The notes under the pieces were generated by a model. The model was not told the DNA's origin, did not search any database, and saw nothing but the letters and a program-made list of their open reading frames with translations. From a virus, in IMG/VR virus record IMGVR_UViG_3300037486_000541, positions 1-26,338 of that record: a stretch of DNA of 26,338 bases; one strand, written 5' to 3'. A program made the position numbers and the translations under genes. Within the stretch, counting starts at the first letter, position 1. Each line of letters starts with the position of its first letter. This document shows positions 1 through 8,471 of this stretch, one piece after another.

Positions 1-2
1 TC

Positions 3-37
3 CCCCCACATTAACACACCTTTGGTGTGTGTGGGGG
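3..37. repeat. 35-base imperfect palindrome at the window edge
   Basis: CCCCCACA (3-10) pairs with TGTGGGGG (30-37), and CACACC (15-20) pairs with GGTGTG (24-29) around a TTT loop. A four-base TTAA bulge lies on one side. There is no T-run on either strand, so it is not a classic intrinsic terminator, although it lies downstream of the minus-strand operon that ends at 395. It could be a 3' end structure or a protein-binding palindrome. Confidence 0.5.
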
Positions 38-394
38 TCCCCCCTGGAGTGGAGATGGGTATGTGGGTAAAAGTAAGCCAAACAAGCCAAAAGCGGGGTA
101 TTTGGTTTTTAGGGGTGGTGGAGCGGGCAAAGAATGGGTGAGCTTCAACGGTTTACGTTCTGGAAAACCCCTAACATTCCAGCAAGATTCCGGAAACTGG
201 AGTGAATTGGCATAGAATTGACGTAAGTGGTTGATAATGGTACAGCGTATAGAAGTTGAATTAAATATGTTAGGGGTATGGTGAATTCGCGTAAAGTGTT
301 GGCAGCCAACAGAACTAAAGTTACTTCAGGGGTTCGGATTGTGGGGGGAAATTTGGGGGTTACAATTCGTATAAAGTGTTGGCAGCCAACAGTG
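38..394. other. Non-coding stretch left of the minus-strand operon
   Basis: I see no convincing gene here. A GTG-initiated plus-strand ORF at 27-215 has no ribosome-binding site and no recognisable domain. The stretch contains the two copies of a palindrome-bearing repeat listed separately. The plus strand is notably G and T rich, a skew that continues through the cupin and the next gene up to about 1650. Confidence 0.5.
284..319 (+). repeat. Palindrome-bearing direct repeat, copy 1
   Basis: This 36-base unit matches 364-399 at all but four positions. Its core is the perfect inverted repeat TGTTGGCAGCCAACA (297-311), with 7-base arms around one central A. The flanks AATTCG and CTAAA are shared with copy 2. 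The palindromes of the two copies start exactly 80 bases apart. The likely role is a binding site for a dimeric protein, such as an operator or replication/partition iteron; which one cannot be told. Confidence 0.7.
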
Positions 395-399
395 CTAAA
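364..399 (+). repeat. Palindrome-bearing direct repeat, copy 2
   Basis: This is the second copy of the repeat at 284-319, with the same perfect palindrome at 377-391. Its right end overlaps the last codons of the minus-strand cupin gene. Because the palindromic core is conserved exactly while some flanking bases differ, the palindrome appears to be the constrained element. Confidence 0.7.
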
Positions 400-922
400 T
401 TTTGAAAGTTGGTGTTAGGGGTGGTGGTTTGGGTTTTGAGGCTGGGGAGATGCGGAAGGTATCGGAATTGGAGTGAGGGGTAGAGGCTTCGAAGACAGAC
501 CCGGCATGGGAGCAACAGACCTGGTGGGCGGTGCCGGCTGGGAGGTGGATGATGGATCCATGGGAGGCTGGGAAGAAGGTATGGGTGCCGGTTTTGGGAT
601 TGACGGTGGTGATGAGGAACTGGCCGGATTCGACGAACCAGGTTTCGGTTTTGGCGAGGTGGTAGTGGAGGGAGCCGTGGGTATTGGCGAGGAAGTTGAG
701 GATTTTGAAGGTATAGAGGGGGCCGTTATGGATCCAGAGTTCATGGCCCCAGGATTTGGTATGGGTGGTGGTTTGGGTGGGTGGAGGATATTTCATGTGG
801 ATAATTTTGCGTTTGAGGTTACCGCGTTCGGAGAGGCCCGAGCAGACGATATCGCGGAACTGCTGGCAGGAGATGTTCGGGATTCGCCGTCTTTTTTTCG
901 TCTTTCGCCGGGTATTTTTCAT
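395..922 (-). CDS. Cupin-domain protein (sugar isomerase/mannose-6-P isomerase type II-like fold)
   Basis: This 175-residue protein has a very basic N-terminus (about residues 1-15, KNTRRKTKKRRR) followed by a single cupin barrel. The cupin signature is visible as GSLHYHLAKTETWFVESGQF, giving the H-x-H...E metal-ligand pattern, and later HLPAGTAHQV, which supplies the second-motif histidine. Phage and cell-surface sugar genes often carry such cupins, which act as sugar-phosphate isomerases or sugar-binding proteins; the substrate here is not determinable. The C-terminus is Pro/Lys/Ser rich. The ATG at 922 was chosen because upstream ATGs overlap the preceding gene. No strong ribosome-binding site is visible, and a shorter start (MKYPPP...) is possible. 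It is the last gene of the minus-strand operon. Confidence 0.72.
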   Translation of the reverse strand: MKNTRRKTKKRRRIPNISCQQFRDIVCSGLSERGNLKRKIIHMKYPPPTQTTTHTKSWGHELWIHNGPLYTFKILNFLANTHGSLHYHLAKTETWFVESGQFLITTVNPKTGTHTFFPASHGSIIHLPAGTAHQVCCSHAGSVFEASTPHSNSDTFRISPASKPKPPPLTPTFKI

Positions 923-945
923 GTTTAGCTGTCTATTTTGGGGAT

Positions 946-1422
946 TTAGGTGTGACAGGATTTGTCCTGGGGGCATTGGCAGGCTTTGGATTCGCGGATC
1001 CAGCCGCCGAGGGTTTGGATCATTTCTTCGAGGAGAGATTCGGCTTCGAGGCGGGTGATGGGGTGGGTTTTGGGGTTTGGGGTGCGGGTTTGGCGATCGG
1101 AATGGGGTGTGACGATGAAGAACGGGGCTCCGTGGGCGGTTGGGGCGCGGATGAAGGCGAAGTCATTTTTCATGGGGGTGGTGGCGTTGGGGTCATGGGT
1201 TGGTGTGGGAGACTGCGGCAACTTTTGGACACTGGCGGCCTGGGTGCCGGACAGGAACAGGTCAGTGGCCAGGCAGAGGGCGATGCTGGCGACCACGGGG
1301 TTGGCCTGTTTGAGGTTTTGAAGGAAGTGGCTCAGGAGTTCCTGGACGGCTTTCTGGTCGGCTTGGGGCAGGTTGGCCAGGAATCGTTTGACGTCTTCGA
1401 AGGTGACGGTTGGTTCGTTCAT
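946..1422 (-). CDS. Hypothetical protein, 158 aa
   Basis: I do not recognise the family. The N-terminal third (residues about 5-55) looks helical, with a hydrophobic stretch around VVASIALCLATDLFLSG. The middle is a Pro/Thr/Asn-rich linker, a second helical segment lies at about 120-145, and the tail ends in a CQCPQDKSC cluster. The start ATG overlaps the stop of the upstream gene as ATGA (1419-1422), which supports both the start and translational coupling. The coding strand is C/A rich, like its neighbour. Confidence 0.6.
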   Translation of the reverse strand: MNEPTVTFEDVKRFLANLPQADQKAVQELLSHFLQNLKQANPVVASIALCLATDLFLSGTQAASVQKLPQSPTPTHDPNATTPMKNDFAFIRAPTAHGAPFFIVTPHSDRQTRTPNPKTHPITRLEAESLLEEMIQTLGGWIRESKACQCPQDKSCHT

Positions 1423-1676
1423 GAGTGTTCGGGGTTGGGGTTATCTGGGACGTCGTGGGAGATGCAGACGGAGGCGATTTTGAACTGCATTGGTGGGACG
1501 TATTTTTTGGTTTTCGGCAGTGAGTTGTTGTGGAGGCTGCGGGCGCGGATGTAATCCATGGCCTCGGGGATGGAGGAGAAGAAGTTGCCGACGACCCGCT
1601 CTTTTTCGCAGAGGTAGGGGACCCAGGTTTTGGAACCTTCCGGCCGGCAGAGGACGACGTGGTAGCAGATTTTCAT
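1419..1676 (-). CDS. Hypothetical protein, 85 aa
   Basis: This is a small compact protein beginning MKICYHVVLCRPEG. No family was recognised. It alternates predicted strands (ICYHVVLC, FKIASVCI) with one helix (IPEAMDYIRARSL), suggesting a small alpha/beta fold. It starts 8 bases after the stop of the primase-helicase and overlaps the next gene by ATGA, so it belongs to the same operon. Confidence 0.62.
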   Translation of the reverse strand: MKICYHVVLCRPEGSKTWVPYLCEKERVVGNFFSSIPEAMDYIRARSLHNNSLPKTKKYVPPMQFKIASVCISHDVPDNPNPEHS

Positions 1677-1684
1677 GCGGGTGA

Positions 1685-3790
1685 TTAGGCTTGGGGGCCT
1701 TTGATGTAGAGTCCGCTTTTCTTTGCGAGTTTGCCATTTTCGACGAGGGCGTCAAGGGTTCGCGAGACGGTGCCGCCGTGTATGTTGACGCGGAGGACAT
1801 TGGCTGCGTACTCGGTGATGCGGGTGCTGATGGCGTTGTGGCGTTCGCCCTCTTCGGTGCAGACGGCCAGGAATTCGGCCAGGTTGGCGGTGGCGATCTT
1901 GCCGGCTTTGCCGCGTTCGGTGAGGATTTCCTTGGGCTGGGGGTTGCTGACGGTGGCGCTGGCGCACTCGACCGGGGGGTCGGTCTGGATCCAGAAGATG
2001 TTCTGGGACGAATGGCTCAGGAGGATGGTGTTGGTCCGGTTACCGTTGGGGTGGGTGGCCTGGGCGCGTTTGCCGCGTTTGGCCAGGAGTAGCTCGTAGT
2101 TGGTGTCCTGGAGTGGGTTGAGCACCATGATGGCCCGGGCCCAGTTGGTCAGTTCGGACGAGCCGATGCCGTGGTAGGCCCATTCGGACATGCTTTTGAC
2201 CGGGCGCGGGTTCTTCTTGGTGGGCTGGAAGTCTTTAGGGGGCTTGCCGCTGTGGTGGACCCCCAGGAAGGCCACGTTGGAGCCGGCCAGGATGGGATTG
2301 AGCCAATTCCGGCAGAACTGGCCGACGACCTCCTGTTTGGAGATGTCGTTACCGATAAAGGAAAGGAGGGGATCCACGATCACCAGGTCGGGTTGGTGGT
2401 GGTCGATCAGGCGTTGGAGGGCGACGATGAAGGCGTGGCCGGTGTCGGCGACGTTGTGGTTGGTGATGAGGCAACGCTCGAGCTGTTCCCAGACGGCCGT
2501 GTCTTGAACGATGCCCATGCCCTGCGCGATGCCCAGGTCCATGTCGTGGAGGTCGGCCAGGTCGTTCTCGGCCTGGATCATGAGGATCTTGAGGGGCCCG
2601 GTGGGGGTGATGCCGAAGCAGGGCCGGCCGAGCGCCCAGGTCATGGCCAGCTGCCGGGCGAGGGAGCTCTTGCCGATCCCCGAGGGGCCGACCAGGAGCG
2701 CGGAACCGCCTTTGCGCAGCCAGTGGTGGCCGGCCACGGTCAGCCCATCGTCATCGGCGTTGTAGTCGCGGATCCGTATGCTGCTGTAGGTGGTGCCGAT
2801 CCCCTGGACCAGGAGGTGCCGGGACCAGTCGGTGAAGGAGGCCGCGCCGATGTCCAGGGCCAGGAGCATCTGGACCGAGTCGCCGCGTTTGGCGTCGGGG
2901 CAGCGGCTGAACCGGGAGGGGTTCTTGTTGTGGGCATCGGGCTTGTAGGCGGCGAAGTGGTTGTAGACCAGGTTGACCCGTTCGTCGTATTCCTTGCGGT
3001 TCTTGGCGTGGATCTTGACCCAGGCGTGGATGCTCTTGCCGCCCGAGTAGATCACGGCCGCACACGGCAGGTTGGACTTGGTGTAGAGTAACCACTGCTC
3101 CTCCAGGCTGATCTCGTCGAACTCGATCAGGGCGTGGCGAAAGGAGGTGACGTCGGAGTCGCGGCCGCGCCCGTCCTGGCTCATCGGGTTGATCCCGAGG
3201 TAGACGCCGACCGGTGGACCGCCCAGGCGGTAGTAGATGCTGTTGATGTCGATATGCTTCTCTAACTTGGCCAGCCACTCCTCCCGGGAGAGCACGGCGC
3301 CACCGTGGGGATCGCAGCCGATCGTGCCGTCCTCGGTGAAGCCGCTCATCACCCGCACGCCTTCCCCGGGCTCAAAGCAGCTGCGCAGGACCAGCTCGAA
3401 GCCGTCCCACTTCCCGTTGGGCAGCTCCAGACCGGCGGCTTCGGACAGGTCGTAGTCCAGGCTGGGTAGGGCTGGTCGACCGTCGGGGGGCCTGGTGGCC
3501 GGCGCCAGACGGTCGGGGCGTTCCCGGCGCCCGGTCAGGAGGTAGCCCCGGGGCTTGCCGAAATCCTTGGTGTCGGCCTCGCGGATCTTGTGTTCGAGGT
3601 CGGCCGGGGACCAGGGCGGCTGGCAGCCACGGTTCCACTCCTCGAGCAGGAGCATGGCCTCGTGGTCGGGTAGGTTGAAGCCCCACTTGAGCGCCCGGGC
3701 GGCATTGAGGGCTTGAACGTGTCCTTGCTGGCCTGAGACTGACGGGGGGATGGCAGCCAGGTATTTTTGGGCTTGTTCGAAAATAGTCAT
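1685..3790 (-). CDS. Primase-helicase: PriCT + AEP-like primase + RepA/RecA-like ATPase
   Basis: This 701-residue replication protein has several regions. Residues about 15-80 resemble a PriCT helical module (GHVQALNAARAL, EWN.GCQPPWSPADLEHKI). Residues about 190-320 look like an archaeo-eukaryotic-type primase core, with EFDE at 223-226, the SGGKSIHAW motif at 249-257 and an Arg/Asp cluster near 293-303. Residues about 350-600 form a RecA-fold ATPase of the RepA/AAA_25 type, with Walker A GPSGIGKSS (368-376), IQAEND at 405-410 and Walker B LVIVDP (469-474). A GVHHSGKP element follows at 510-517. The C-terminal region (about 630-700) looks like a winged helix (TRITEYAANVLRVN...GGTVSRTLDALVENGKL). 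It presumably primes and unwinds phage DNA. Whether the primase centre is catalytically complete is uncertain. Confidence 0.85.
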   Translation of the reverse strand: MTIFEQAQKYLAAIPPSVSGQQGHVQALNAARALKWGFNLPDHEAMLLLEEWNRGCQPPWSPADLEHKIREADTKDFGKPRGYLLTGRRERPDRLAPATRPPDGRPALPSLDYDLSEAAGLELPNGKWDGFELVLRSCFEPGEGVRVMSGFTEDGTIGCDPHGGAVLSREEWLAKLEKHIDINSIYYRLGGPPVGVYLGINPMSQDGRGRDSDVTSFRHALIEFDEISLEEQWLLYTKSNLPCAAVIYSGGKSIHAWVKIHAKNRKEYDERVNLVYNHFAAYKPDAHNKNPSRFSRCPDAKRGDSVQMLLALDIGAASFTDWSRHLLVQGIGTTYSSIRIRDYNADDDGLTVAGHHWLRKGGSALLVGPSGIGKSSLARQLAMTWALGRPCFGITPTGPLKILMIQAENDLADLHDMDLGIAQGMGIVQDTAVWEQLERCLITNHNVADTGHAFIVALQRLIDHHQPDLVIVDPLLSFIGNDISKQEVVGQFCRNWLNPILAGSNVAFLGVHHSGKPPKDFQPTKKNPRPVKSMSEWAYHGIGSSELTNWARAIMVLNPLQDTNYELLLAKRGKRAQATHPNGNRTNTILLSHSSQNIFWIQTDPPVECASATVSNPQPKEILTERGKAGKIATANLAEFLAVCTEEGERHNAISTRITEYAANVLRVNIHGGTVSRTLDALVENGKLAKKSGLYIKGPQA

Positions 3791-3844
3791 GGGGAGTAAA
3801 GTTCGATCGGTTCGGTTTGCTGGGTTAGTATCGTTCAGGGGCAG

Positions 3845-3868
3845 CCCCGGTTTGGTTGTTCGCCGGGG
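3845..3868 (-). terminator. GC-rich hairpin downstream of the DHH gene
   Basis: CCCCGG (3845-3850) and CCGGGG (3863-3868) form a perfect 6-bp stem with a 12-base loop. The stem extends by partial pairing to GCA/TGC outside. It lies between the stop of the DHH gene (3881) and the start of the primase-helicase (3790). No U-tract follows on the minus strand, so it may be an attenuator or an RNA-stability element. Confidence 0.35.
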
Positions 3869-3880
3869 TTGCCTTCTTTG

Positions 3881-5554
3881 TCAGCCTCGGACTGGCTGGG
3901 TCCCTTCCGGCGTGAGCGTGCTGGCCGTGATGACGGCCACCGGCGGCGCCCCGGTCACCGACGTGATCGGCACACTCGCCACATCGCGGCCTTCGAAATA
4001 GACATCGCCCACCGCCAGGTCGTCGAAGCAAAAAACTCCAGAATGCACATCGAAACAACAGCCGAAGGTGGTGTCGCTGTAGTTGGTCGTTTCCAAGACC
4101 TTGGCAAAGGCGGCGCCCGTTCCCGACTGACGCAGGTAGTAACGTGCGCCTGAACCAGGCTGAGTTTCGATCCGGAAATCGTAGGACAGACCGCGAGTGT
4201 AGGTTGCCACCTTGCCTCGGTCGGTTCCGTTTTCGTAGACACGCAAATCGCCATTCGCAAAATACACCGCGTAGACGAGTTGAGCGTAATTCCCCGAAGC
4301 GAGACTCGGCCTCCGAAAACCGACCATGGCATGCGTGGTCCCCGTCGGGGTGTCCACCCGGCCCTCCAACCAGCCGCCACGCTTGACCTTCAAATCGAGC
4401 GGGAAAGCCCAGGCACTACCCCAACTGCCCTGGCCCTCCAGTATCAGCTTCTCGTCCTGCTGGGCGTTGGCCACCCGCCATTGGTTAAGATCAAGATCCT
4501 TGCCGTGGAAATCGAATTGCCGGTGGTGATTCTCACTTTGGTCAAGATCGAGCTCCTGGATTACCGACGGCTGACCCGGTTCCGGCCTTACCAGGAACAT
4601 GTCGGCTCGGAGGTCCTGCACAAAGCCACTGGCCTGTTTGTGTCCCCCTCCGCCGAGCGCCTTCGCGATCACCGAACAGTCGAAGCTCGGCCGGCTGCGG
4701 AGCCCCCACTGCCGTTGGCCGTCGCCCCGGTCCATGTAGTAGCCGGCGAATGGCGAGGCGGGGTGGCGCTTGAGCAGCTCCTCACCCACCTCGGAGTAGA
4801 AGACCGTGGCATTGGCGACCGGCACAAAATACTGCTTCTCATAGCACTCGGGGCTGGTCTGGGTCAGGATCCTGGCCGGATCGTCATTCAGATCGAACAG
4901 CATCCACCGGGCATGATCGCACATGTTATCGACCATCTGCCTTTGGAGGTTGAGCGCGGTGATGCCGCCGATGATCATCTCCTCGCGTTCCCGGGTCGAT
5001 TCCATCCGGTCCATGAGCCAGTGCCAGAGATTCATCTCCATGGGCCGCGACTTGATGTAGGCGCTTATGGCGTGGCTATGGGGCAGCTTGAACAGCCAGA
5101 GATCCCGGTCTTGGAGGTACTGGATGAACATGGGCGCAGGCTTGCCGGGATTGAAGTACTCCCAGGCCAGCATGGCGCCGGATTTGGTCATGTCGAACTT
5201 GAGCGAGATGTTATTTACTCGGTTCATCTCGGTGGTCAGGTCTGTCTGGAACGTGGTTTCGTCGATCAGATTGAGGGCTTGCTTGAACGCCGGCCACGAG
5301 AGGTCCTTCTCTGCCGTTGCGTGATGGTCGAGCACTACGACTTTGTTCTGGAACGCGGCAATCTCAAGCAACACCTTGGCCGGGTAACTGAAGTCCAGGA
5401 TGTAAACGTCGCTCCCGGGATCGAGTGTGGGCGGCGCCTGGCCATAGAGCACAGGGATGTGCGTGCAGCCCGTGTCTTTGAGCGCCAGGTACGCCACCAT
5501 GGCGGCACCAAATCCGTCGAAGCAGTTTCCGTGATAGAGGATGTAGCTTTTCAT
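3881..5554 (-). CDS. DHH/DHHA1 phosphoesterase fused to a concanavalin/LamG-like domain
   Basis: The protein has 557 residues from the ATG at 5554, which overlaps the upstream stop as ATGA; a longer frame to 5719 is rejected. Residues 1-315 are a DHH-family phosphoesterase. They show HGNCFDGFGAA (8-18), an Asp at 54 in YILDFS, the DHH motif (76-78), QDRDLW (148-153) and the DHHA1 signature GGGGHKQASGF (301-311). NrnA/RecJ-type DHH enzymes cleave nanoRNA, cyclic dinucleotides or ssDNA. Residues about 340-557 add a beta-rich module (NYAQLVYAVYFANGDLRVYE, GLSYDFRIE, FGCCFDVH) resembling a concanavalin A-like/DUF1080-type sandwich, which is not a usual partner of DHH enzymes. The domain assignment of this half is by pattern only. 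Confidence 0.82.
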   Translation of the reverse strand: MKSYILYHGNCFDGFGAAMVAYLALKDTGCTHIPVLYGQAPPTLDPGSDVYILDFSYPAKVLLEIAAFQNKVVVLDHHATAEKDLSWPAFKQALNLIDETTFQTDLTTEMNRVNNISLKFDMTKSGAMLAWEYFNPGKPAPMFIQYLQDRDLWLFKLPHSHAISAYIKSRPMEMNLWHWLMDRMESTREREEMIIGGITALNLQRQMVDNMCDHARWMLFDLNDDPARILTQTSPECYEKQYFVPVANATVFYSEVGEELLKRHPASPFAGYYMDRGDGQRQWGLRSRPSFDCSVIAKALGGGGHKQASGFVQDLRADMFLVRPEPGQPSVIQELDLDQSENHHRQFDFHGKDLDLNQWRVANAQQDEKLILEGQGSWGSAWAFPLDLKVKRGGWLEGRVDTPTGTTHAMVGFRRPSLASGNYAQLVYAVYFANGDLRVYENGTDRGKVATYTRGLSYDFRIETQPGSGARYYLRQSGTGAAFAKVLETTNYSDTTFGCCFDVHSGVFCFDDLAVGDVYFEGRDVASVPITSVTGAPPVAVITASTLTPEGTQPVRG

Positions 5555-5808
5555 AGGTTGAGTCGTTTCAAGTCCAGTTCTGTCTGTTGCTCGCGGGCCT
5601 GCATATCGTCGGCAACCTCTCCGAGCATTTTGAGTTTTTCCAGTGAGGTGCATATCGATTGCATGCACTCGATTTCGTATGCAGCCTTCTCTGCCGTCAT
5701 CCGGCCGCCTTCGACCCACTTGGGGTAGACGTTTGTCCGGAGGGAGAGTTCGCGCCGTGCGCAGGCCAGCATTTCCGCGTGACTGCGGGTTGGTGTTGGT
5801 AGTTCCAT
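5551..5808 (-). CDS. Small conserved-type phage protein, 85 aa
   Basis: A mostly helical protein containing ARRELSLRTNVYPKWVEGGR, which resembles a short family seen in many phage replication operons (REL..R...YPK.V..G.M....A..EI..M..I). Its function is unknown. It begins one base after the preceding gene's stop and overlaps the DHH gene by ATGA, so it is probably co-translated with it. Confidence 0.68.
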   Translation of the reverse strand: MELPTPTRSHAEMLACARRELSLRTNVYPKWVEGGRMTAEKAAYEIECMQSICTSLEKLKMLGEVADDMQAREQQTELDLKRLNL

Positions 5809-5809
5809 G

Positions 5810-6103
5810 TCAGTTTCGGCTGGGTCGTGATCTAAATTTGATGGTTTCGAAGAAAAACTCGCGTTCGGCTGGGGTGGCGAACATTACGCCTTCCAGTGTG
5901 GTCGACAGTTTGTCGACGAACTGATCCAGGGTGTAGCCCGACCCCGGTTTGGGCGCCCATTCCTTGTCAATGAACGCGAGTACGCATGGGTCCGTTTCAG
6001 CCGCATCAATCTGATCTAGCGCCTGGTCCAAAAGTGCTAGGTCCTTCCCGTGTCGGACCCAGATTCTGCGATAAGCCTCATATCGGATTTGGCGCACCGT
6101 CAT
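5810..6103 (-). CDS. Hypothetical protein, 97 aa
   Basis: The start at 6103 (MTVRQIRYEAYRRIW) follows the helicase stop by one base (TAATATG) and is preferred over an upstream frame that would run into the helicase. The protein is helical in the first 45 residues, with acidic and aromatic patches, and ends in a basic tail (IKFRSRPSRN). No family was recognised. Its place between helicase and DHH genes suggests an accessory replication role, but nothing in the sequence proves it. Confidence 0.62.
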   Translation of the reverse strand: MTVRQIRYEAYRRIWVRHGKDLALLDQALDQIDAAETDPCVLAFIDKEWAPKPGSGYTLDQFVDKLSTTLEGVMFATPAEREFFFETIKFRSRPSRN

Positions 6104-6104
6104 A

Positions 6105-8471
6105 TTACTTTCCGGCGTTGAGCGCGACGAAGAACTTCCGCGCATCCGCCCGTGTGGCCTTGCCGGCATTGGGGTGTCCCTTCTGTTGCATCACCCACCG
6201 TTGTTTGTAGGTGGCCAGTTGGAGATCCTTCTCCTTAAAAATGATGTCCAGCAGCACCGAGGCGTGGCCGCGCCCACGGACGCTGTCGAGATCCAGATTT
6301 GCCTGTACGAGGTATTTGGCCTGCGCATCAGTGACGCCTTTGGACTCCCAGACCATGGTGGGCTCGTAGAACGCGGCAGACCGGTTATCATGCTGAAGGC
6401 AGAATTCATCGGCGCTGATATATTTGGCCTTGCGATTGGCCAGCGCGGCCAGTTCTTGGCGCAGTGCAGCGGACCGTTCCTCTGCCACCTGGTCGGCCAT
6501 GTCTATGAGGTCGGCACAATCGTTGCCGTTGTCGGCTGCGAGTTGAGTGATGCAATCAGCCTCCTCGGTGTCTTTTGCCAGTAAATCGGCCGGGTGAACG
6601 ATCCTGTGTTTCTCGTGCAACCACAGGAAATCAAGCAGGAGCAGGTTCTCCTTGGTCTCGTGGATCCTAGTGCCGCGACCACACATTTGGGCGTAGAGGG
6701 GCCTGGATTTTGTGGGGCGGAGCACCAGTACGCAGTCGATGGTCGGATCATCGAAACCTTCGGTGAGCAGCATGGCGTTGCTCAGGAGATCGAACTCCCC
6801 GGCCGCAAAGCGCTCCAGGGCCTCCTTGCGATCGGATGATTCACCCGAGACGTGCTTGGCCACCAGGCCGACCTCGTTGCACGCGGCGATGAACTTGAGC
6901 GAGGTGTCGATCAGGGGCAGGAACGCCAGCACCTTGCGGAATGACGCATGCTTGCGCACCGCCTGGGCGATGGTAAACAGGTAGGGCTCGAGGGCATGTC
7001 CAAGTTCCTCGTCCGAAAAGTCGCCGGCCAGGAGGTGGACGTTGCCCAGGTCGATCTCGAGCGGCACGCTTTTGACCGTGATCGGACAGAGGTATTCCTG
7101 CCTGATCAGTTCGACCAGGGGAACGTCAATCGCCACGTTTTCGAAGAATGTCCCCAGCTTCCTCTTGTCGCCCCGGTCGGGCGTGGCAGTGACCCCCAAC
7201 ACCTGGCCGGTGAAATGGTCGAGGACCGTCTGCCAGGAATCGGAGATGGCGTGGTGGCAATTATGAACTAGGATGCCGTTGGCGAGGTAGGTGTTCCCAT
7301 TCAAGACTTCGAGATTGTAGACAAAACCTTCTGGACACAACCGCTCAAATTCGCCTCCACTTCCTGGTTCAAGAATCTCACGACTGACCATCCGAGTGAA
7401 CCTAGCAACTCGTCTTTCTTCTGGTCTTGGGCCTGCCTGGTGTAAGCCGCATGAGAGTTTCCATCCACCTCTATGGCCACTTTCAAACTTCGGTTTCCAA
7501 TATCCACCTTGTAGACAGTTGGATAGCCACTGCCTCTGGGTTGCTTGGTCCGTATCGTAATTTCCATCCCCCATCCCAGAGCCATGGCCAGAGCTTGTTG
7601 GTGAATCGGGGGCGGGTGTCCGTTCCCTCGCCTGATTGTCGGGCCCCACCCCATTGCTCTTAGTTTTGTGGACACTAATGCCCGAACAGCTGCATCGTGC
7701 ATCCCGTTCGTTTTTCTGAACTTGGTTATCTGCCCCCCGTGCTTCTTGAAGGTCTTGTTGATTGTTCGTCGGGAGAATTCCGATCTGCACTTCGGACGGT
7801 TGCAAAGCCGATTCTTGGTTGGGGTTCTGCAGATGATGCATTTCTTCATAAGGCATGATGGTAAGCACCATATCATTAGTGGTTAAGCCAATCGCCGCAA
7901 CGAATCCTTTTTCGGTCCAAACTGGATGACGCGGGGTGCAAACCAATTGACGGCCATCTTCGAAGTTGAGTCGGCATAGAATGGTCGTTTTGTTCTTGAA
8001 GACATGCGTCACAGTGCCCAAGCCCAAGTGCGTGGTCACTTCGTCAAATTGCATGATCCTCTCAATTGGGCGGCCATCAACTAACGTCCCAGGCACAAAA
8101 CATTCGTCGACCACGATCAGCCCAAAGTGATCGGCCGGCCACTTATCGAGCCGGCGAATCATGGTCTGAACCGATGCCACCACGACAGGTGCTTCCACGG
8201 AGGCTGTGAACTCCGCTTTTTCCTTCGAGGCAATGATCCCCGTGGCCATTCTAATTTTCTGAATCGCCTGGTCGATCAGCTCGTCCCGATGGGCGAGTAC
8301 CAGCGTGCGCTGAGGTAGCCGGCGAGCTGCCAACCAGGCAAAGATGCAGGTCTTGCCGGAACCAGTTGGCAAAACCGCCAGTTGTCGGTTGAATTCCTTG
8401 AATCCGATTTCAACGCGCTCGATGGTCTCTTGCTGGTAAGGCCTCGGCGACAGTTGGTTTTCCGGGCTCAA
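6105..8471 (-). CDS. SF2 DEAD/DEAH-type helicase, intein-containing precursor
   Basis: The precursor has 788 residues from a TTG at 8471 that overlaps the upstream TGA (TTGA). The frame is open to 8663, but that part lies over the preceding gene. The extein (507 residues) is a superfamily 2 helicase. It has PRPYQQETI as a Q-motif-like entry, Walker A TGSGKT (36-41), LVLAHRDELIDQA (motif Ia), motif II DECHH, VTATPDRGD (motif III), and MCGRGTRIHETKENLLLLDF (motif VI). It resembles phage UvsW-like/RadD-like DEAD-box helicases acting in recombination and replication restart. Motif II is split after DE by a 281-residue intein (precursor residues 124-404), so the helicase should be inactive until protein splicing rejoins the site. 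Upstream lie RecT-like, nuclease and candidate SSB genes. Confidence 0.88.
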   Translation of the reverse strand: MSPENQLSPRPYQQETIERVEIGFKEFNRQLAVLPTGSGKTCIFAWLAARRLPQRTLVLAHRDELIDQAIQKIRMATGIIASKEKAEFTASVEAPVVVASVQTMIRRLDKWPADHFGLIVVDECFVPGTLVDGRPIERIMQFDEVTTHLGLGTVTHVFKNKTTILCRLNFEDGRQLVCTPRHPVWTEKGFVAAIGLTTNDMVLTIMPYEEMHHLQNPNQESALQPSEVQIGILPTNNQQDLQEARGADNQVQKNERDARCSCSGISVHKTKSNGVGPDNQARERTPAPDSPTSSGHGSGMGDGNYDTDQATQRQWLSNCLQGGYWKPKFESGHRGGWKLSCGLHQAGPRPEERRVARFTRMVSREILEPGSGGEFERLCPEGFVYNLEVLNGNTYLANGILVHNCHHAISDSWQTVLDHFTGQVLGVTATPDRGDKRKLGTFFENVAIDVPLVELIRQEYLCPITVKSVPLEIDLGNVHLLAGDFSDEELGHALEPYLFTIAQAVRKHASFRKVLAFLPLIDTSLKFIAACNEVGLVAKHVSGESSDRKEALERFAAGEFDLLSNAMLLTEGFDDPTIDCVLVLRPTKSRPLYAQMCGRGTRIHETKENLLLLDFLWLHEKHRIVHPADLLAKDTEEADCITQLAADNGNDCADLIDMADQVAEERSAALRQELAALANRKAKYISADEFCLQHDNRSAAFYEPTMVWESKGVTDAQAKYLVQANLDLDSVRGRGHASVLLDIIFKEKDLQLATYKQRWVMQQKGHPNAGKATRADARKFFVALNAGK
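7260..8102 (-). mobile_element. Intein in helicase motif II (281 codons)
   Basis: The N-terminal junction is DE^CFVPGTLVDG, with Cys1 encoded at 8102-8100. The C-terminal junction is NGILVHN^CHHA, with Asn281 at 7262-7260 and Cys+1 following. Splicing blocks are clear: block A CFVPGTLV, block B CTPRHPVW (Thr56, His59), block F VYNLEV and block G ANGILVHN with penultimate His280. All catalytic residues for class 1 splicing are present. Residues about 85-200 between the splicing halves are hydrophilic and low in hydrophobic content (rich in Gln, Gly, Ser, Arg), with no in-frame LAGLIDADG or HNH domain. That stretch is the other-frame reading of the nested endonuclease ORF at 7301-7876. Confidence 0.93.
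7301..7876 (-). CDS. Out-of-frame nested Vsr/DUF559-like (EDxHD-type) homing endonuclease
   Basis: This 191-codon ORF lies wholly inside the intein on the same strand, shifted by one base. Residues 13-30 give a C-x2-C-x8-C-x4-C zinc-finger-like cluster. Residues about 75-175 match the Vsr/DUF559 nuclease pattern: a basic NGHPPPIHQQALAMALGWG region, then YKVDIGN (Asp125), AIEVDGNSH (Glu136, Asp138, His142), QAQDQKKDELL, and GWSVVRF (162-168). This fold is used by Vsr repair enzymes and by a homing endonuclease family known from fractured, split-intein phage genes. The start is uncertain: ATG at 7876, or ATG at 7849 just before the zinc cluster, neither with a strong ribosome-binding site. The inferred role is cutting intein-less helicase alleles to spread the intein. 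Confidence 0.85.
   Translation of the reverse strand: MIWCLPSCLMKKCIICRTPTKNRLCNRPKCRSEFSRRTINKTFKKHGGQITKFRKTNGMHDAAVRALVSTKLRAMGWGPTIRRGNGHPPPIHQQALAMALGWGMEITIRTKQPRGSGYPTVYKVDIGNRSLKVAIEVDGNSHAAYTRQAQDQKKDELLGSLGWSVVRFLNQEVEANLSGCVQKVLSTISKS

Follow-up and report, generated by a model that had tools for sequence, protein, structure and literature searches.

In inteins of the canonical bifunctional type, such as PI-SceI and the intein of Mtu RecA, the homing endonuclease is in frame with the splicing domain and forms one polypeptide with it. Vsr-like endonucleases also occur in group I introns, and it is from such an intron that the Vsr-like homing endonuclease I-Bth0305I comes. In the fractured genes that Dassa and colleagues are said to have described in 2009, a study cited in PMC12350094 and PMC6801210, a free-standing endonuclease, reportedly often Vsr-like, is located between the halves of a split intein. 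The ShiLan domain, an HNH endonuclease that lies hidden in another frame of phage methylase genes (PMC11855218, 2025), is the nearest published case that was found, although an earlier mention in Dassa 2009 or Gorbalenya 1998 is possible. In the stretch of viral DNA analyzed here, the 26,338 nucleotides of IMG/VR record IMGVR_UViG_3300037486_000541 (the window), a phage helicase gene is interrupted by an intein, and an open reading frame (ORF) for a homing-endonuclease-like protein is read from the same bases in the +1 frame. We consider it very likely that the intein is contiguous and probably active in cis-splicing, and that its homing endonuclease is a protein of its own, encoded in the +1 frame. 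This reading is built on several observations: there are two ORFs in a conserved +1 relation, the intein frame stays open, constraint acts on both sides, folds are predicted for both proteins, and empty alleles exist. Splicing, internal initiation, cleavage and homing are what we infer from them.

The locus shares features with each of these systems. As in the canonical bifunctional inteins, a homing endonuclease lies inside a Hint domain at the position usual for such insertions, but it is in another frame and is a separate protein; an endonuclease in frame with the splicing domain was found neither in the window nor in any relative with a detectable intein. I-Bth0305I has the same catalytic-domain fold, although it is intron-borne, whereas the window nuclease occupies an overlapping frame of an intein. 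The fractured genes are alike in their Vsr-like endonuclease, their gp41-1/NrdJ-1-like Hint domain and their residence mainly in phage DNA-metabolism genes. There, however, two intein ORFs are parted by the nuclease gene, while here one intein ORF stays open across the nuclease; separate ORFs for the two intein halves are absent from the window and its contiguous relatives and are present only in one locus, L113. In common with ShiLan, a mobile insert is placed in a conserved phage gene, the host frame is free of stops, and the endonuclease lies in another frame, overlooked at first and with its translation unexplained (PMC11855218). The ShiLan HNH domain differs in being encoded in the third frame and in having no detectable splicing domain, in contrast to the full Hint intein and the DUF559/Vsr-like nuclease in +1 described here.

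The host gene (positions 8471 to 6105, minus strand, as are all features below unless indicated) encodes a phage superfamily 2 (SF2) helicase of the ResIII/RadD-like type, with matches to ResIII (1.1e-22), Helicase_C (2.9e-9) and phrog_16 DNA helicase (4.9e-80) in profile searches of the window. Judging from the sequence, its likely start is the TTG at 8471, which overlaps the TGA of the upstream gene (8471-8468) and suggests translational coupling with it. The N-extein (8471-8103) and C-extein (7259-6105) flank an intein of 281 amino acids (8102-7260) inserted exactly between DE and CHH of helicase motif II (DE|CHH). The class 1 Hint motifs are complete: Cys1, the block B TxxH (TPRH), block F VYNLEV (7322-7305), and VHN at the end of block G (NGILVHN, 7280-7260), followed by Cys+1. 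C1, T56, H59 and N281 are invariant in the intein family alignment, and the C-terminus matches TIGR01443 with a score over the curated cut-off. In the AlphaFold2 (AF2) model of the intein, for which, as for the nuclease, rows from annotated phage records were left out of the input alignment, the Hint halves have predicted local distance difference test (pLDDT) values of 80-97. The N-terminal half (residues 1-91, 8102-7830) is conserved in the alignment and its strands are mostly above 90, and the C-terminal half includes strands at residues 231-244 (7412-7371) and 260-266 (7325-7305), the latter containing block F. A Foldseek search gave the gp41-1 intein as the best match (6qaz, E 2e-5), with the Mtu RecA and NpuDnaB inteins also among the matches.

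The nuclease ORF (7849-7301) comprises 182 amino acids from the ATG at 7849. This ATG, rather than an alternative one at 7876, is the likely start because it falls where L010 and L011, the nearest relatives, have their only starts. The protein is made up of a Zn-ribbon-like CxxC...C...C region, NUMOD3-like helices, a GNG motif and a Vsr-like/DUF559 PD-(D/E)XK domain. It matches PF04480 (E 4.2e-12 to 4.6e-12), as do all 56 of the 56 members of the nuclease family alignment, and its AF2 model has a mean pLDDT of 92.8. The closest structures are the DUF559 protein 3hrl (Z 12.3), I-Bth0305I (Foldseek probability 1.00, VIA Z 11.3) and Vsr (Z 9.8). Asp116, Glu127, Asp129 and His133 are invariant in the family and are candidate equivalents of the EDxHD residues.

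The +1 arrangement is shared across a family. Viral contigs queried with the window nuclease alone yielded no relatives, while an alignment-based search yielded 198. Scans of viral and bacterial contigs, together with profile searches of three-frame translations, gave 144 distinct nuclease loci, and in all 125 with a detectable intein the nuclease is in the +1 frame: 117 have both intein halves in a single uninterrupted ORF, seven have one detected half, and one, L113, is split. The remaining 19, without a detected intein, are mostly plain DUF559 proteins. Complementary sampling by the N-terminal Hint half gave 57 distinct inteins: 53 with a +1 nuclease and four mini-inteins that lack it. A nuclease in any other frame was looked for in every locus of both samplings and none was found. 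By tblastn, 41 phage records contain the nuclease; the feature under the match is the helicase or another host coding sequence in all 40 listed, none of these 40 has a separate nuclease gene annotated, and in all eight phage regions inspected the nuclease occupies the +1 frame with respect to the helicase coding sequence. The arrangement is present in diverse SF2 helicases and in DnaX. The DnaX case is L103, where an intein with a hidden nuclease lies within the gene of this DNA polymerase III clamp loader component (3280-5358). A further locus, L081, has a 2800-codon open frame (1-8403), a large phage polyprotein-like gene, with the nuclease in +1.

Stop codons are avoided in the intein frame across the nuclease. 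Over the overlap, 74 of the 75 loci have none in that frame, whereas a total of about 603 is expected from synonymous permutation of the nuclease codons and 1003 are present in the third, unused frame. The avoidance is visible in codon choice: tyrosine codons placed before AA, AG or GA could create TAA, TAG or TGA in the intein frame, and there TAC is used in 104/104 cases compared with 100/233 elsewhere (Fisher 1e-29). The sole exception is L113, with 10 intein-frame stops, as its intein is already divided between two ORFs. In the contiguous cases the length of the insert is always a multiple of 3, without stops. Over the body of the overlap (7814-7446, intein residues 97-219) the nuclease dominates; the intein frame is open, predicted to be disordered (most of it at pLDDT <50) and fast at nuclease-silent sites. 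Analysis of close pairs (25 disjoint pairs) showed that substitutions peak at intein third positions outside the overlap and at nuclease third positions over the nuclease body, both at 0.40, which places the intein frame over the nuclease body close to a shadow. Upstream of the zone discussed next it thus looks like an open, disordered shadow, and its excess conservation there is small; natural mini-inteins of 129-139 amino acids do without this stretch.

It could then be proposed that the intein frame is a passive shadow over the whole overlap and that conservation of its C-terminal strand is a by-product of the nuclease. An earlier note on this DNA, made from the sequence alone, had claimed the opposite for positions 7401 to 7301, where recognisable motifs of both families would share the same bases, implying strong codon-level co-evolution. 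Both frames read as it claimed: the nuclease ORF ends with GWSVVRFLNQEVEANLSGCVQKVLSTISKS followed by TGA (7303-7301), and the intein frame reads MVSREILEPGSGGEFERLCPEGF-VYNLEV and then LNGNTYLANGILVHN|C. The position given for the nuclease stop was right in its coordinates and one residue off in the intein numbering, since with Cys1 (8102-8100) as residue 1 the TGA spans Leu267-Asn268 and not 266-267. According to the two AF2 models, the nuclease core strand of residues 155-160 (7387-7370, in GWSVVRFLN) shares its bases with the Hint strand of residues 231-244, and the nuclease C-terminal helix (residues 168-181, 7348-7307) lies over intein block F. In family terms, GWxVxRF of the nuclease coincides with VxSVEV of the intein, and the distance from the nuclease GW to the end of the intein is 134 nucleotides in 50 of 68 loci.

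This gap-free 134-nucleotide C-terminal zone was analyzed in 54 relatives by comparing each frame with shuffles synonymous in the other. The intein strand is conserved more strongly than the protein sequence and codon usage of the nuclease would require (z 13 for V, 18 for V/I and 10 for E), as is V-Y-N of block F (z 7 to 27); conversely, nuclease columns exceed the intein-synonymous shuffles for G, W and V of the GWxVxRFxN segment (z 25-32) and for the STISK tail (15.7 for the first S, 3.6-10 for T-I-S-K), these z-scores not being exact probabilities since they ignore the shared ancestry of the sequences. After STISK the nuclease z is about 0 at most positions, and a control frame gives values near 0 across the first three quarters of the overlap. 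A further view is provided by the four-fold-degenerate nuclease sites, which differ at 22% in the zone and 41% upstream (Fisher 7e-11), change being lower in the zone in 20 of the 25 disjoint pairs (p 0.004). Double constraint begins near 7402-7412 and is not found further upstream, where the intein frame is merely kept open. Moreover, natural mini-inteins, which have no nuclease, still possess a short strand immediately preceding block F. The passive shadow, essentially true upstream, is therefore contradicted for 7402-7304, and as an account of the whole overlap it is very improbable. These comparisons support the view that both frames are under selection in the last ~100 nucleotides of the overlap. 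The claim of the earlier note is thus borne out by homologues at sites silent in one frame only, and the pattern that would speak against it, a nuclease ending before block F, is rare: only in L087, L103 and L116 does the stop lie 62-65 nucleotides before the intein end, just where block F begins.

An ATG or GTG is present near the nuclease start in 70/75 loci, and a Shine-Dalgarno match of at least 5 nucleotides precedes the start in 31% of the loci against 6.8% in the control; in several of them it sits in the codons of the conserved intein D-E-V. Programmed ribosomal frameshifting, yielding a fusion of N-extein, N-intein and nuclease, would account for a nuclease frame that is always exactly +1 and for the lack of a Shine-Dalgarno sequence in the window. 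It is hard to reconcile with those start codons and Shine-Dalgarno matches, with the window nuclease frame being closed two codons upstream of its first ATG, and with the L113 N-intein ORF, which stops just past the nuclease start; we regard frameshifting as quite improbable, although no search for slippery sites was made.

Besides the relatedness of the sequences behind the z-scores, several observations weigh against an intact, active element in the window. No Shine-Dalgarno sequence was found before 7849 or 7876, nor before the starts of L010 and L011, and the metal-binding region of the nuclease is shorter than in most relatives. On the intein side, the match to PF14890 is under its curated cut-off, and the strand MVSREILE is atypical, with R at a position occupied by V or I in 52/54 relatives and M at one occupied by V in 45/54, which makes the splicing efficiency of this intein uncertain. 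The motifs of both frames are thus recognisable, as had been claimed (PF04480 and TIGR01443, far beyond chance), but this strand can not be called typical. The nuclease might accordingly be a decaying relic, with only the intein functional in the window, as the shortened metal-binding region, the missing Shine-Dalgarno sequence and an RGNG where the family has GGNG would suggest. Yet the ORF has neither stop nor frameshift, the family-invariant residues are kept, its model is of high confidence, and the differences between the window and L010 are distributed over nuclease codon positions as 0.24/0.24/0.56, a pattern that indicates purifying selection on the window nuclease. A relic is therefore unlikely, though it is the least improbable of the alternatives.

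A contiguous intein with a separately translated nuclease could work as follows. The helicase-intein ORF would be translated straight through, and the Hint halves (residues ~1-91 and 230-281) would splice out, joining DE to CHH, while the intein-frame stretch over the nuclease body would be a disordered linker between them. Ribosomes initiating internally, close to where the N-terminal Hint half ends, would make the Vsr-like nuclease. This enzyme would cut DEAH-box alleles that lack the intein, and repair would then copy the whole element in. In the last ~100 nucleotides each protein would take its own conserved elements from the shared bases, hence the selection on both frames. Intein-free alleles exist: the close helicases L247 (80% amino acid identity), L248 and L249 have DEAHH at the site of DE|CHH in the window, and the Cys+1 in place of the Ala of the empty allele fits the requirement of an insert removed by protein splicing. 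Removal at the RNA level, with the open intein frame incidental, would agree with the residence of Vsr-like endonucleases in group I introns, but there is no Rfam match in the window, and the complete Hint motifs and fold, the stop-free insert of a multiple of 3 and the Cys replacing Ala leave an intron with a negligible probability.

Related loci are found in several states. Mini-inteins without nuclease (L260, L277, L280 and L323) have 129-178 amino acids, and that of L260 keeps a segment resembling a nuclease shadow, so that it looks like a recent deletion. In L090 (3872-5940) and L244 (2830-5101) a free-standing nuclease lies directly before an intein-less helicase, and its C-terminal tail is without the block-F-like STISK segment. 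L113 (3172-5466), on a bacterial metagenome-assembled genome contig labelled Lacinutrix, is a fractured gene and the sole split case of the family: an N-intein ORF is followed by the nuclease ORF and then by an ORF of C-intein and helicase. These states suggest a path that starts with a neighbouring gene, passes through the nested overlap and ends in the fractured gene, its direction being our inference. In comparisons of pairwise distances, Hint, nuclease and C-extein are correlated with one another to a similar degree (Mantel r 0.53-0.59), which does not separate inheritance of Hint and nuclease as a unit from that of the host gene.

On balance we favour the view that these loci represent a fourth intein architecture besides the mini, in-frame bifunctional and split ones, namely old and widespread contiguous inteins with a dual-coded +1 Vsr-like endonuclease, and also an evolutionary bridge between the free-standing nuclease (L090, L244) and the fractured gene (L113). 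They would constitute a repeated and long-maintained case in which two unrelated folds read conserved core elements from shared bases, with a strand of the nuclease lying over one of the Hint domain and its helix over block F. The path would offer a concrete route for the entry of endonucleases into inteins and for the origin of split inteins and fractured genes. More than 100 natural sequences are on hand in which trade-offs between splicing and cleavage could be studied, and a phage homing nuclease family goes unannotated because it is hidden inside helicase genes.

Elsewhere in the window, the DHH phosphoesterase ORF (3881-5719) has an extra C-terminal region of ~240 amino acids without a PHROGs match. 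A 482-codon open frame on the plus strand (4280-5728), antisense to the DHH gene, is probably a shadow.
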